Of a stretch of 64,000 nt of DNA, positions 51,058-55,350 are shown in pieces. Each line of letters starts with the position of its first letter. Position 1 is the first letter of the stretch. The DNA is taken from NCBI RefSeq assembly GCF_009882945.1, contig NZ_WTUY01000002.1:64927-128926 (forward strand), in the 5' to 3' direction. A model generated the notes under the pieces. That model was not told where the DNA came from. It saw only the letters and a program-made list of their open reading frames with translations, and did no database searches. The translations under genes were made by a program, and so were the position numbers. The DNA is from Alcanivorax sp. DP30. GTDB lineage: Bacteria > Pseudomonadota > Gammaproteobacteria > Pseudomonadales > Alcanivoracaceae.

Positions 51058-52515
51058 TCACACCACTGACATCGGCACCTGATCCAGCATGCGCTCCTCG
51101 ATGCGATCCAGGCGAGCGCGGCAGTCGCGGAAGGTGCGGCTAATCATGGTGGTGTTGGCTACCATTTCCACCTTGGGCCAGGTGGCCTGCTCGCCCTTGC
51201 GGATGTAGTTGCGTACATCCTGCAGAGTCGGGTTGCTGAGCACCTTGAGAGCATTCATGGGCTGACGGGGCGGGATCATGTTGATGTCGCCGATATACTT
51301 CTGCGTCACCATGCTCTTGGCCTTGTCGATCATCAGACCCACATCGTTGGAAGCAACACGCTGCTGTACCAGTTTAAGGGCATAGCGAATATTCATGGAG
51401 GCGTTGCGCAGGGCCCAGTCACCGAGGGTGCTGAGTGAGTTACCTGTGTCGCTACGGGACAGGAACGGCACCACATGGGGGTTGGTCTGGCTGACGATGG
51501 AGTGATTCACGCCATACAGACGGGACAGCCGGCGGATCGGCAGATCGTCGACAATGGAGCCATCAACAAACTTGCGGCCGGGGATATAGGGCACTCGCTC
51601 GCCGTCGATATTCTTGGCCCACAGGGATACCGGTGGATAAATGCCGGGAATCGCACAGGACGCCAGTGATGCCTTGCGAATCAGCACATTGGGGGAGGTG
51701 CGTCGATTGAGCAGCCGGGCATGCTGGTTGCGGTCATAGGGGCTGACCGTGATATTGATTTCCCGCCCGGTATGCCGGTAGGCCTCTTCAAAGGTCATGT
51801 CGGAAATGTTTTCTTCCAGGCAGGCTTCCAGGTGGTCGCCGTCCAGCACCGGGGTGCCGCGGATCAGGCCTTTCCAGCCCAGTACCTTGAAGGCTTCCAG
51901 ATAGATGTTTTCCGGTTCCAGCTTGAGCTTCAGTTCTTCATCGTTGTGGGTGCCCACCACGGAAGCAATGATACTGCCGGCACTGGATCCCGAGATCACG
52001 GAAGGCAGCAGGTCCTGCTCCCAAAGGCAGCGGGCCACGCCGATATGGAAGAGTCCCAGTGCAGCGCCGCCGGACAGCATCAGACAGCTCTGCCCGAAGG
52101 CCTGACCGGTGGTCTCGAAGAAATCCAGTTTCTCCTTGAGCCCGAACTCCTTGAAGTTGGTGTCACACAGGTAATTCAGCGCGGTAGTCACCTCGGTGAG
52201 ATAGTTCTCGATCAGGTGTTTGGTACCCACGCGGCTGTGCTGATAAAGGTGCGGATTGGAAATGTTGCCCAGATTGCCATGCAGGCCTTCATGCAGGTGG
52301 AAGACCAGCTTGTTCACGTCCCCGCGCTCGCGGGCCTGGCGGATTTGCCAGAGGCGATTACGGATCAGTTCGTAATCGTAATGGGGAGAACGGTCGATTT
52401 CTTTCCATTCATCCGCACCGGAAAGCCGGTCGTGTTCCTGGCTGGCCTCATACCATTCGTTATAGGTCTGAGCGTGCTCAATGGCCCGTTCCAGTTGCTT
52501 GAGCGTGCCTTTCAT
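51058..52515 (-). CDS. DUF3336 patatin-like lipase
   Basis: A 485-residue protein with an N-terminal DUF3336 region (residues 1-135) and a patatin core. The glycine-rich oxyanion loop is SGGAALGLFHIGV, the nucleophile elbow GSSAG has Ser178, and the catalytic Asp is in KFVDGSIVDDLP. DUF3336 plus patatin is the domain order of fungal triacylglycerol lipases Tgl3-5 and of a bacterial group. Since Alcanivorax-like bacteria store neutral lipids, a lipid-mobilising role is a reasonable inference. No signal peptide, so it acts inside the cell. No downstream partner is evident. Confidence 0.9.
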   Translation of the reverse strand: MKGTLKQLERAIEHAQTYNEWYEASQEHDRLSGADEWKEIDRSPHYDYELIRNRLWQIRQARERGDVNKLVFHLHEGLHGNLGNISNPHLYQHSRVGTKHLIENYLTEVTTALNYLCDTNFKEFGLKEKLDFFETTGQAFGQSCLMLSGGAALGLFHIGVARCLWEQDLLPSVISGSSAGSIIASVVGTHNDEELKLKLEPENIYLEAFKVLGWKGLIRGTPVLDGDHLEACLEENISDMTFEEAYRHTGREINITVSPYDRNQHARLLNRRTSPNVLIRKASLASCAIPGIYPPVSLWAKNIDGERVPYIPGRKFVDGSIVDDLPIRRLSRLYGVNHSIVSQTNPHVVPFLSRSDTGNSLSTLGDWALRNASMNIRYALKLVQQRVASNDVGLMIDKAKSMVTQKYIGDINMIPPRQPMNALKVLSNPTLQDVRNYIRKGEQATWPKVEMVANTTMISRTFRDCRARLDRIEERMLDQVPMSVV

Positions 52516-52737: not shown

Positions 52738-53097
52738 CTAGATGCTAAGTGTCGACTCCACTTCCTGGCAGGCACGCCGTGCCAGAGCCAGGTTGGATTT
52801 GGCTTTATCCAGCACCAGGTAAATAAACAGGCCTTCCTTCGCGGCGACAGGCCGGATGATGTGGTACTGGCTACCCAGGGTGATCAGGATGTCCTCGATC
52901 TTGTCGTTCAGACCAAGCGATTTCATGGTTTTCATTTTGGCGCGAACCACTTCGGTATTACCCGCAGCAGCCAGTTCAAGATCCAGACCGGTGCCATCCT
53001 GGCCAAGAACCATCCCACTGTTCGCATCGACGATGGCCGTGCACATGGCACCATCGGGTTGCAGTAGGGCGGTAAGACTTTCTTTTACACTAGCCAT
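52738..53097 (-). CDS. Roadblock/LC7-domain protein, distal copy
   Basis: A 119-residue protein with a roadblock/LC7 fold (ALLQPDGAMCTAIVDANSGMVLGQDG; DLELAAAGNTEVVRAKMKTM; DILITLGSQYHIIRPVAAKEGLFIYLVLDKA). Roadblock proteins act as partners or GTPase-activating scaffolds for Ras-like GTPases such as MglA. It is last of four leftward genes with the GTPase, separated by 53 bases from the other roadblock gene and only distantly similar to it, which suggests a hetero-complex. Confidence 0.88.
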   Translation of the reverse strand: MASVKESLTALLQPDGAMCTAIVDANSGMVLGQDGTGLDLELAAAGNTEVVRAKMKTMKSLGLNDKIEDILITLGSQYHIIRPVAAKEGLFIYLVLDKAKSNLALARRACQEVESTLSI

Positions 53098-53150
53098 GTT
53101 GTTCTCCTTGCTTTACTTCCTTGAGGGTGTGGTTTTACACGCTTTTGTTG

Positions 53151-53558
53151 TTACTTCTTGCTGAGTTGCTCGGCCAGGCTGCGGCAACACTCTTTCGAGG
53201 CCCACAGCAATTGCCCGAGAATGGACGCATCGTTGGCCACAACGGCCAGCGACATGGGCGGGGAGACGCCACGAACTTCCATGACTGTCACCACGCCAGA
53301 TTCTGATTCCACAATCATTCGGCTGCATTCCTTGAGGCTTGCTTCCTTGGCAATGGCTTGCCCGATGGCGGCCAGGGAGCTTCCCATGGCTGCCAGCTTG
53401 CTGGCGCTTTCATCATTCAGGTGGAGAGAGGCAACCTGAAAACCATCATTGGTCAGCAGGACGGCAGAGGTGACGCCCTTGGTTTCCTGACCGAATTTTT
53501 CCAGCTGCCTGGTGGCAATGGAGGTGCCTACCTTTCCCAGTGGGGATTGTGCGGTCAT
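53151..53558 (-). CDS. Roadblock/LC7-domain protein, proximal copy
   Basis: A 135-residue roadblock/LC7 protein: KGVTSAVLLTNDGFQVASLHLN in the first strands, ASKLAAMGSSLAAIGQAIAKEA in the helix and MIVESESGVVTVMEVRG in the later strands. It overlaps the GTPase gene by 4 bases (ATGA), so translation is coupled. With the second copy it may form a platform for the GTPase, as MglB does for MglA, though MglB is normally a single type forming homodimers. Confidence 0.88.
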   Translation of the reverse strand: MTAQSPLGKVGTSIATRQLEKFGQETKGVTSAVLLTNDGFQVASLHLNDESASKLAAMGSSLAAIGQAIAKEASLKECSRMIVESESGVVTVMEVRGVSPPMSLAVVANDASILGQLLWASKECCRSLAEQLSKK

Positions 53559-54115
53559 GCTTGGAGACTCCTGCAGTCATCGGCTTCTATCTGGCAAAGC
53601 AGGGCATCAACCAGCAACAGTACATCGTCCTGCTGGCGGACATCTGCATCGAAAATGGGTAGGGCAATACCGCGGTCTTCCAGGCGCATGGCCAGTTTTT
53701 CCAGGCAGCTAGTATCATCCGCAGCAAGCCGACCTATGCCGACGACCATGGGGACCTTGCCGTTGCCGAAAGCGTTGACATAAAGCTCAAGCTGGTCGGC
53801 GACTTCGGGGTGTTCACCGTTAAGCAGCACAATGACACCGGCGGCATTATTGAGAAGAATGGGCCACATGAAGCGAAAACGCTCTTGGCCGGGAGTGCCA
53901 TACAGACGAACGCAACTGTTATCGGGCAGAACAATCTGGCCATAATCCAGTGCCGCTGTGGTCAGTTCCTTGTTGCACTGTGCAAGATCGGTATTCACCA
54001 CATCGGTGGAGACGGCTTCATGATCACTGATGGCTGAAATCGCAGTGGTTTTTCCCGCCCCCATGGGGCCGGTAAACAGAATCTTGAATTCGTTGCTGGC
54101 GTTGGCGTTCATCAT
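53555..54115 (-). CDS. Ras-like small GTPase of the conservon (CvnD/MglA-like) type
   Basis: A 186-residue small GTPase. The P-loop is GPMGAGKT at 16-23, switch I has the Thr pair TTAALDYG at 52-59, and switch II reads GTPGQERFRFMW (GTPGQ at 73-77), the pattern of the conservon CvnD and MglA-like bacterial GTPases. The base-recognition NKxD is not present: the expected place has VVGIGRLAADDTS. Thus either nucleotide choice is relaxed or another residue substitutes. It begins on the stop of the 321-residue gene upstream (TAATG). Conservon roadblock proteins accompany it. Confidence 0.87.
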   Translation of the reverse strand: MMNANASNEFKILFTGPMGAGKTTAISAISDHEAVSTDVVNTDLAQCNKELTTAALDYGQIVLPDNSCVRLYGTPGQERFRFMWPILLNNAAGVIVLLNGEHPEVADQLELYVNAFGNGKVPMVVGIGRLAADDTSCLEKLAMRLEDRGIALPIFDADVRQQDDVLLLVDALLCQIEADDCRSLQA

Positions 54116-55080
54116 TAGCTACTCAGACCAAGGCGGTGACGCAAACCCTGAATAAACGAGCCCATACGGCGCGGTTCATGGGTGGCGGCTGCAGCACGGG
54201 TAGAAGGGGCGACCGCGCCGGTTTCACAGACCAGAAGATTGCTCATGGCACAGGCTGACAGGAAACGGTCGACCTGTTGTTGCGCACACCCTGCATGGGC
54301 GGCCAGTTGTTCCCTTTGGCAGGGCTGCTTGGTCATCAACGCACTCATGGATAAGTAGGCACGGTCACTTTTGGCCGAGCGTACATTGGGCCAACGCTTG
54401 AGCCGGAAGCTGCCATTTTCGGGTAACCAGGCGGGCAGACTGCTTGCCAGTTGCGCCGTCATCCATGCCAGTTCCGCTATGGGGCGACGGGTATAAGCGC
54501 TCAGGTCGGTGTCAGCAGCAGGCTCCAGGGCCGGCAATGTGGCGGCTTTCTGGCGCACCTCATTGAAGAGGGGTTCCTGGATGAAATAAGCGCCGGCTGA
54601 TGGTGAAACAAACAGAGAGCCTTTTGGACTACGGGACTGATAAAGCGTTTGCGTGTTCTTGCCGGTCACTGCCTGATACAGGGATTCACTGAAATCGGTT
54701 TGTTGTGAGGTTGCCTTGCGGGGCTGTTCGGCGGAGGCCTGTGCAGTGGTTTGCTGTCTTTGGCCATCGTGACTCAGGGTGCCGGAGATGTCTTCCAGCA
54801 CCGAGATAAGCTGCATTACCCGGAATGGATGAGAGAGGGTATAGGGGGCGGCTGGTTTGTCTTCGTTGTTGTGATAAATGACGATGCAGGGTTTGTTGCT
54901 GCCTTGCCATTTACGGTTGGCATCACTGTCGTCATTGGCCAGCATAAGAACGTCGGCATCTTCAGGCTCGGCCTGCATCCATTCGATGCTGGAGCGACCA
55001 TTCATGATCTTCAGCATGGACAGGCAGGCGCTCGTGGTGTCCGCCTCCAATCCTACAAATGCCAATTTCCTGTTTTCCAT
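54115..55080 (-). CDS. Unknown protein, first gene of the GTPase operon
   Basis: A 321-residue protein of unknown family and the first gene of the operon (GGAGAG before the ATG at 55080). The first ~100 residues alternate hydrophobic strands and helices (KLAFVGLEADTTSACLSMLKIM; ADVLMLANDD; PCIVIYHNNED; SHPFRVMQLISVLEDI), like a receiver domain without the phospho-Asp. A polar Gln/Ser/Thr linker follows to about residue 150. The last ~70 residues (QREQLAAHAGCAQQQVDRFLSACAMSNLLV) look like a winged helix. No signal peptide or membrane helix. It may be the input or output partner of the GTPase module. I make no functional call. Confidence 0.7.
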   Translation of the reverse strand: MENRKLAFVGLEADTTSACLSMLKIMNGRSSIEWMQAEPEDADVLMLANDDSDANRKWQGSNKPCIVIYHNNEDKPAAPYTLSHPFRVMQLISVLEDISGTLSHDGQRQQTTAQASAEQPRKATSQQTDFSESLYQAVTGKNTQTLYQSRSPKGSLFVSPSAGAYFIQEPLFNEVRQKAATLPALEPAADTDLSAYTRRPIAELAWMTAQLASSLPAWLPENGSFRLKRWPNVRSAKSDRAYLSMSALMTKQPCQREQLAAHAGCAQQQVDRFLSACAMSNLLVCETGAVAPSTRAAAATHEPRRMGSFIQGLRHRLGLSS

Positions 55081-55350
55081 TGCCGCTCTCCGTGCGGTCT
55101 GCGTATTCCCGGGGGTGGGAAGACGCAGCTGTTTGCCACTTTTGTGCGCTAGTCGTGGTCAGCGATGTGATATTCGCGTGAATGACCTTTCCTCCTTTGT
55201 AGGGATTAACGGCTCTGCTTGGCAAAGGGATGGCGATGAACGGCCGATTATAGAGGCTGAAAAATCGATGACAGACATTCGAAATGGCACTCGTGTGCAA
55301 AAAGCTGCAATTTAAGTAAGCCAAGTGCTCTGGTGAGAGTAGGAAATTGC

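Follow-up and report, generated by a model that had tools for sequence, protein, structure and literature searches.

Group 3 of the MglA family of small GTPases was described in 2014 as nearly confined to beta- and gammaproteobacteria (Wuichet and Søgaard-Andersen, PMC4316618). In the gene neighbourhoods typical of this group, MglA stands beside one or two MglB proteins and a conserved unknown protein with receiver-like and winged-helix-like parts predicted by Phyre2, and transcriptional control was proposed as its role (PMC4316618). Its G4 motif is deviant and often without the Lys, for which a D-A-R type of G5 may compensate; this G5 is common to Groups 2 and 3, GTPGQ in G3 and the Thr of G2 are features of Groups 2-5, and an Asp-Gly pair is reported for the MglB proteins of Groups 2-5 (PMC4316618). 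Here we analyse a four-gene operon from Alcanivorax sp. DP30 that almost certainly belongs to Group 3; "the window" denotes the whole stretch of 64,000 nucleotides that was analysed (contig NZ_WTUY01000002.1, positions 64,927 to 128,926). This marine bacterium belongs to an oil-degrading genus.

Group 1 MglA has an Arg beside the G2 Thr, TVPGQ in G3 and a standard G4 (PMC4316618); in Myxococcus, MglB forms a bipartite GTPase-activating protein (GAP) complex with RomY (PMC9481161), and MglC is a paralogue of MglB (PMC7949163). The Group 2 GTPase MfpB (PMC4316618) has a demonstrated GAP, MfpD (PMC9769811); the G4 of Group 2 is often without the Lys, yet MfpB (PMC9769811) and CvnD9 (cited in PMC4316618) hydrolyse GTP. 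The mglA of Snodgrassella was put in Group 3 by its authors, who found that a mutation in an orphan mglB altered the colony edge and gut colonisation and inferred type IV pilus-dependent motility (PMC11112851). Among open-licence PMC papers, the scope of all literature searches given here, no study of the module in Alcanivorax was found, and for Acinetobacter, Xanthomonas, Neisseria, Stenotrophomonas and their relatives only PMC4316618 and PMC11112851 were recognised as dealing with it.

The operon and its place in the MglA family

The operon lies at positions 52738-55080 of the window, on the minus strand, where the list of open reading frames (ORFs) gives four genes head to tail, as the preliminary description of this DNA had proposed: X, the GTPase and the two roadblock proteins here called RobA and RobB. 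X and the GTPase overlap by 1 nt, the GTPase and RobA overlap by 4 nt and RobA and RobB are 53 nt apart, a tight spacing that shows the genes to be packed as an operon. Its features, all on the minus strand, are:

54115-55080, minus strand: gene X, 321 amino acids (ORF, AlphaFold2 model, receiver fold match), with a pseudo-receiver at residues 1-114, a linker, a winged-helix-like part at about residues 223-290 and a conserved basic C-terminal tail
53555-54115, minus strand: Ras-like GTPase of the MglA Group 3 type, 186 amino acids (ORF, motifs, relatives, tree)
54047-54070, minus strand: P-loop (G1) GPMGAGKT, residues 16-23, with G16, G21 and K22 invariant in 25 sequences
53876-53899, minus strand: G3/switch II GTPGQERF, residues 73-80 (sequence)
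53723-53734, minus strand: degenerate G4, G128-R129-L130-A131, at the NKxD site (alignments)
53636-53644, minus strand: G5, D158-V159-R160, of the D-A-R type of Groups 2 and 3 (alignment)
53151-53558, minus strand: RobA, 135 amino acids, roadblock/LC7 protein of the MglB/CvnB type, probable GAP (Pfam, profiles)
52738-53097, minus strand: RobB, 119 amino acids, second roadblock protein, outside Pfam (AlphaFold2 and Foldseek)

The Group 3 features found here are the host range, the deviant G4, the D-x-R in G5, GTPGQ, the G2 Thr, the receiver-like neighbour and a coupled roadblock protein with the D-G pair (RobA). The likeness to the published group (PMC4316618) covers the gene set, the deviant G4, G5 and GTPGQ, and nothing excludes membership; the Alcanivorax operon differs in that its G4 has lost the Asp as well, and in that RobB lies outside Pfam and has no D-G pair. 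The Snodgrassella mgl operon, with one mglA and two adjacent mglB genes, is another Group 3 case; that bacterium also carries an orphan mglB-3, the site of the mutation (PMC11112851), whereas in the 3.6-Mb genome that contains the window RobA and RobB each gave one match. The GTPase of the window is the only convincing one of its kind in this genome, and a second copy was rejected (the best candidate was a 28% stretch, E = 0.096).

With the conservon/mfp operon of Group 2, the operon shares GTPGQ, D-x-R, a degenerate G4 and a CvnB/MfpD-type roadblock protein, but it has X and RobB instead of a histidine kinase and CvnC. An actinobacterial conservon, which the preliminary description had already set aside, was rejected on the same ground, as Pfam found no kinase and no CvnC (DUF742) among the four genes and the two flanking proteins. 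The Myxococcus system of MglA, MglB and MglC (Group 1) likewise combines a small GTPase with two different roadblock proteins; the window GTPase, however, has Thr-Thr and no NKxD, and there is no RomR among the four genes. A Group 1 MglA was rejected, since G2 has no Arg and G3 reads GTPGQ and not TVPGQ.

The same four genes stand in the same order in all 11 Alcanivorax-type loci (L003-L013) and also in other proteobacterial loci (e.g. L016 and L017); the arrangement is therefore not due to chance. To survey 274 genomes of the class sampled, we applied thresholds of E 1e-6 for the GTPase, X and RobB and of 1e-4 for RobA, with partners within 3 kb on the same strand; the ORF tables of relatives had a minimum of 40-70 amino acids, by set. 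The GTPase was found in 47 genomes (66 places), accompanied by X in 48 places, by RobA in 53 and by RobB in 25, by all three in 16, and by X and RobA without RobB in 26. In 8 RobB-linked places X was missed at the threshold and found on reading the region, and all four genes are present, in varying order, in 24 of the 25 RobB-linked GTPase places (24 loci, one with two GTPases). The preliminary description named operons with a single roadblock gene as evidence against a distinct module, and such operons exist: locus L163 has one roadblock gene and in L165 none was detected. Conversely, 14 of 38 RobB matches have no same-strand GTPase within 3 kb, one of these being near a GTPase on the other strand. 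A protein of about 210 amino acids follows the GTPase in 18 of the 30 loci L090-L119; with no Pfam match (one member, L105) and an hhalign value of 16.5% against RobA, it may be called roadblock-like with reserve.

Matches were obtained in 22 of 46 genomes of the window's family and in 16 of 17 of its genus, one of them as a shortened frame only. In one genome of the genus (L159, 5040-5807) the frames of the GTPase and X are both shortened, and the 11 kb read there gave no match to RobA or RobB; the operon may have been lost naturally. X, the GTPase and both roadblock genes lie near insertion sequences on an Acinetobacter wuhouensis plasmid typed as conjugative (L136, L168); the module can therefore be mobile.

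The GTPase and the roadblock proteins

As the preliminary description had noted, the P-loop and switch II of the GTPase are normal and VGIGRLAADD replaces NKxD, all of which is present in the sequence. Across 25 sequences, G73, P75, G76, Q77, R79 and F80 of G3, the Thr of G2 (KELTT, a Thr-Thr pair) and D158 and R160 of G5 are invariant. The closest relatives, from A. nanhaiticus and Alcanivorax sp. S6407, are 89% identical, followed by other beta- and gammaproteobacteria; relatives came from 68 stretches, that is 67 distinct loci. Taken singly, the GTPase sequence gives weak Ras matches only in Pfam and weak phmmer matches among PDB chains, mostly Rab and Arf (best E = 0.0055), while its profile matches Sec4 and other Rabs (best 60 of 555).

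Sequences below 150 amino acids, matches beyond the E-value limits and duplicates were excluded before the state of G4 was counted; the 106 aligned rows that remained comprise 12 Alcanivorax-type, 56 other proteobacterial (some so called by the class sampled, and possibly with one species counted twice), 26 GTPase-roadblock fusions, 9 actinobacterial, 1 Persephonella and 2 Asgard. G4 has lost its Lys and its Asp in 12/12 Alcanivorax-type rows (GRLA in 4, GRLP in 5, GRLS in 2, GRIS in 1). A homologue with an aligned standard motif was the other finding that the preliminary description named as refuting its reading, and canonical [NT]KxD stands at the aligned position in 10/56 other proteobacterial rows, of which 43/56 keep the Asp and 33/56 have Arg for Lys. 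The motif is canonical in none of the 26 fusions and none of the 9 actinobacterial rows, with the Asp retained in 26/26 and 4/9, respectively. The Asp-x-Arg of G5 is kept in 12/12 Alcanivorax-type, 55/56 other proteobacterial, 26/26 fusion and 9/9 actinobacterial rows. These counts show that, within one family, G4 ranges from canonical to fully eroded and G5 stays constant.

In a tree of 120 GTPases the 12 Alcanivorax-type sequences fall together (support 1.0) and, joined by the betaproteobacterial GRLD type, make up a clade of 22 sequences (0.87). The window protein lies inside a proteobacteria-only clade of 95 (0.92) that holds no actinobacterial rows, in a tree built without the 2014 sequences. 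Neisseria, a genus named for Group 3, has a relative that is 40% identical over 79% of the GTPase query. In a Neisseria gonorrhoeae record (L130, 2998-3533) the GTPase frame is interrupted, leaving two overlapping partial frames, and in both gonococcal records the tblastn match to the GTPase comes in two pieces.

In Amphritea, Marinobacterium, Neptuniibacter and relatives (among L029-L049 and L051; e.g. L035, 5995-6990) the GTPase is fused to a roadblock-like C-terminus (six compared; hhalign 89%, E = 2.4e-6); no RobA or RobB match was found at these fusion loci. Such natural fusions argue for direct contact between GTPase and roadblock protein.

That the operon encodes two different roadblock proteins, as first described, was borne out by separate evidence for each. 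RobA is a roadblock protein by Pfam (PF03259, E = 2.5e-9), its D38-G39 pair is invariant in 22 sequences, and among solved structures its profile matches Rv3364c (1.2e-28), CvnB5 (1.9e-26) and MglB (8.2e-5). RobB has no Pfam match, and 1 of 20 members of its family reaches Robl_LC7 weakly (E = 0.05). Its AlphaFold2 model (mean predicted local distance difference test score, pLDDT, 83) gave 133 PDB matches in Foldseek at E < 0.001, the best 50 of them roadblock, MglB, MglC, p14/MP1 and Ragulator entries (3kye at E = 2.3e-7 and TMq 0.82; MglB and LAMTOR2 too), which at the level of the predicted model settles the roadblock fold. The sequence has no Asp-Gly pair, and among solved sequences its only roadblock match is MglC, which is not significant (E = 0.048) and ranks behind two annexins.

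No part of the operon is better conserved than RobB. Its identity is 82-92% in 10 of the 11 Alcanivorax-type loci, the exception being L012 with 75%. Seven further loci, of the Acidovorax/Massilia type, have RobB at 67-72% identity, compared with 43-47% for the GTPase, 34-40% for RobA and, in the four of them with a BLASTP match, 25-26% for X. RobB has matches in 27 records of a plasmid collection, the best 20 of which have 52-76% identity; the matches listed include Streptomyces, Deinococcus and Nocardia and are annotated as "hypothetical protein" or unannotated. Relatives in Actinomycetota and Deinococcota are 52-62% identical. On Streptomyces and Deinococcus plasmids (L135, 4031-6363; L138, 5393-6216) the RobB relatives stand near DUF4388 proteins (below cut-off in Streptomyces), in Streptomyces also near another roadblock protein, and no GTPase match was found in these two stretches. 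In some relatives of the operon, the roadblock genes lie next to a gene for a fusion of an ABC-type ATPase with a DSP/PTP-type phosphatase (L020, 6528-7883; L021, 6492-7874; L025, 1307-2611; L026, 6549-7907).

Protein X, the BLUF sister operons and the surroundings of the operon

The model of X (mean pLDDT 84; predicted template modelling score, pTM, 0.56) gave nothing under E = 0.001 in Foldseek. Comparison by VIA-align, which covered mainly residues 1-114, identified this part as a receiver fold: the best match, at Z 11.8, is to 6ob8_B (root-mean-square deviation 2.5, 110 residues aligned), whose entry title names a dual sensor histidine kinase, followed by NtrX (Z 11.6) and the AraT receiver (Z 11.5). 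Residue 48, the inferred phospho-acceptor, is Ala in 10/12 and Ser in 2/12 Alcanivorax-type rows, and Asp in the relative L019. Because Ala or Ser stands at this place, X is probably not phosphorylated there, as judged from the aligned sequences. Conserved features of the C-terminal part are a WP motif and a basic tail.

In four relatives of the operon, a blue-light (BLUF) domain takes the place of the receiver (Pfam E 5.8e-20 to 7.5e-24), and the neighbouring GTPase, RobA and RobB are of the kinds found in the Alcanivorax operon. The BLUF sister operons (Pfam, same gene kinds) are:

L132, 6001-8072: on an Agarilytica plasmid
L147, 5788-8014: in one of two gammaproteobacterial genomes of one genus
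L139, 2858-5199, and L140, 4599-6917: in the other of these genomes

X and the BLUF proteins have homologous C-terminal parts (hhalign 92.9%, E = 3.7e-7, 91 columns). A Gln of the BLUF domain that we take to be needed for photochemistry is kept in three of the four, L139 having Gly. A phylum-wide search for the C-terminal part gave 0 of 299 in a sample without genomes known to have it, and is thus uninformative. The simplest reading of the replacement is that X receives its input through the N-terminal domain. Against an exchangeable input, BLUF was found in 4 of the 40 X proteins scanned, and the four BLUF-linked GTPases group together (0.98) outside the clade of 95 to which the window protein belongs, so that one swap or a few took place, in a sister lineage. 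This position outside the clade weakens the case for X as an exchangeable input, which we favour by a little, and also that for a broader version of the idea. In that version, put forward tentatively and at less than even odds, RobB-bearing MglA operons would be plug-in cassettes, with the exchangeable N-terminus of X driving a conserved core of GTPase, RobA and RobB and with RobB as a hub of several pathways; RobB would be a shared hub because it occurs away from GTPases, also in Actinomycetota and Deinococcota. In the open-licence papers we recognised no study that joins BLUF with roadblock proteins or with MglA/MglB in this module. Proteins with bacterial globin domains adjoin the module in L015 (7411-8343) and L025 (3226-4752), one of the two with additional ferredoxin and oxidoreductase domains; they are possibly another redox or oxygen input.

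The genes that flank the operon encode an AraC-type regulator and a patatin-like protein (Pfam). The latter, a patatin-like phospholipase with DUF3336 at 51058-52515, lies on the same strand just downstream and shows no sign of operon membership. One further feature lies on the upstream side:

55247-55274, minus strand: promoter-like CTGTCA-N16-TATAAT, with 10/12 consensus bases, 167 nt upstream of X

The region has three promoter-like sites, compared with 1.2 (sd 1.2) in shuffled sequence, which makes this site weak evidence. A phage origin of the operon was rejected, with no tblastn match at E 1e-5 among 50,697 phage records.

Working model and competing readings

Taking the evidence together, a small-GTPase switch operon of MglA-family Group 3 is the best explanation overall, and a likely one. 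In the mechanism we propose, X would be the input protein, and its N-terminal domain, a pseudo-receiver here and BLUF in relatives, would receive a signal by some means other than the usual phosphorylation of an Asp; the conserved C-terminal part of X would then hand this signal to the GTPase-roadblock complex. RobA, probably as a dimer, would be the GAP, and RobB, as a second roadblock partner, would scaffold the complex or tune it, perhaps as MglC does alongside MglB; by this analogy we infer an MglC-like part for RobB. Guanine recognition would be kept despite the eroded G4, perhaps through the Asp-x-Arg of G5, and the target of the GTP-bound form may be either surface behaviour (type IV pili) or transcription. 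A GTP-binding switch with RobA as its GAP is in our judgement probable, and this role of RobA is supported because its best solved relatives are Rv3364c and CvnB5 and because MfpD is the demonstrated GAP of MfpB (PMC9769811).

Several observations weigh against the Group 3 switch as set out here. In the literature searched, no biochemistry of any Group 3 protein was found. Seven of the 66 GTPase places have no partner within 3 kb (any contig-end cases included), and the profile comparison of RobB with RobA is modest (72%). The acceptor position of X was placed by alignment, and the Alcanivorax rows are often acidic 2-3 places further on; for a winged helix in X only sub-threshold Pfam matches were obtained, with the fold comparison limited mainly to the receiver part. 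As regards output, the type IV pilus gene PilP was found in 46 of 47 GTPase-positive genomes versus 178 of 227 others (Fisher p = 6.6e-4), a weak association given a base rate of 78% and uncorrected for descent or genome size, and 14 control genomes gave no positive in the PilP search.

A polarity or type IV pilus switch that works in the manner of the Myxococcus MglA/MglB pair (Group 1), with RobB doing the work of MglC, is a serious possibility that falls somewhat short of an even chance. The PilP count, the MglC match of RobB (not significant) and the phenotype of the orphan mglB mutant of Snodgrassella, whose mglA its authors assign to Group 3 (PMC11112851), are consistent with it; that mutation, however, is in an orphan roadblock gene outside the operon, PilP is present in 78% of genomes even without the GTPase, and no pilus genes occur among the few neighbours annotated.

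We consider it rather unlikely that the operon is a transcription switch in which the GTPase-roadblock unit governs the binding of X, as the effector, to DNA. The prediction of a receiver and a winged helix by Phyre2, together with the transcriptional control proposed in 2014, points this way (PMC4316618). So do the receiver fold supported by our model comparison and a plasmid-borne relative of X that scores 21.8 bits for HTH_IclR, with a cut-off of 22. The conservation of the C-terminal part of X, however, is mainly in the WP motif and the basic tail, with no obvious recognition helix, and winged helices are often protein-protein domains.

A pseudo-GTPase, that is, an Alcanivorax protein that has lost guanine specificity and serves as an unspecific NTPase or a fixed scaffold, seems quite improbable. 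The GRLA, GRLP, GRLS or GRIS of all 12 Alcanivorax-type rows and the Asp missing in 13/56 other proteobacterial rows would fit such a protein; against this, 25 sequences show no variation in the P-loop, the G2 Thr, GTPGQ or D-x-R, and GTP is hydrolysed by Group 2 proteins, whose G4 is often without the Lys (MfpB, PMC9769811; CvnD9).

That this is a distinct module unrelated to described families, as the preliminary description held on the premise that MglA modules normally have one MglB, is hardly credible: RobB is absent from Pfam and the single GTPase sequence matches Ras weakly, but the 2014 description of Group 3 already has this gene set, with one or two MglB, and the deviant G4 (PMC4316618), and the tree nests the window GTPase among proteobacterial homologues.

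The Group 3 switch operon preferred here belongs to a group that was defined by computation in 2014 and is still hardly studied, and for which Alcanivorax is a good test place because it is an environmental genus with mostly single-copy operons. The double loss in G4 in Alcanivorax, the pseudo-receiver, the RobB family and the BLUF swap were not found in print within the open-licence papers, nor were light-controlled bacterial Ras-like switches. With the series from TKxD through TRxD and GRLD to GRLA, GRLP or GRLS in one family, the keeping or losing of guanine specificity becomes testable. Because the BLUF sister operons have an input that could be switched, light can be used to test which way the signal flows, and, if the plug-in reading is true, some of these operons would be light-controlled bacterial Ras-like switches.

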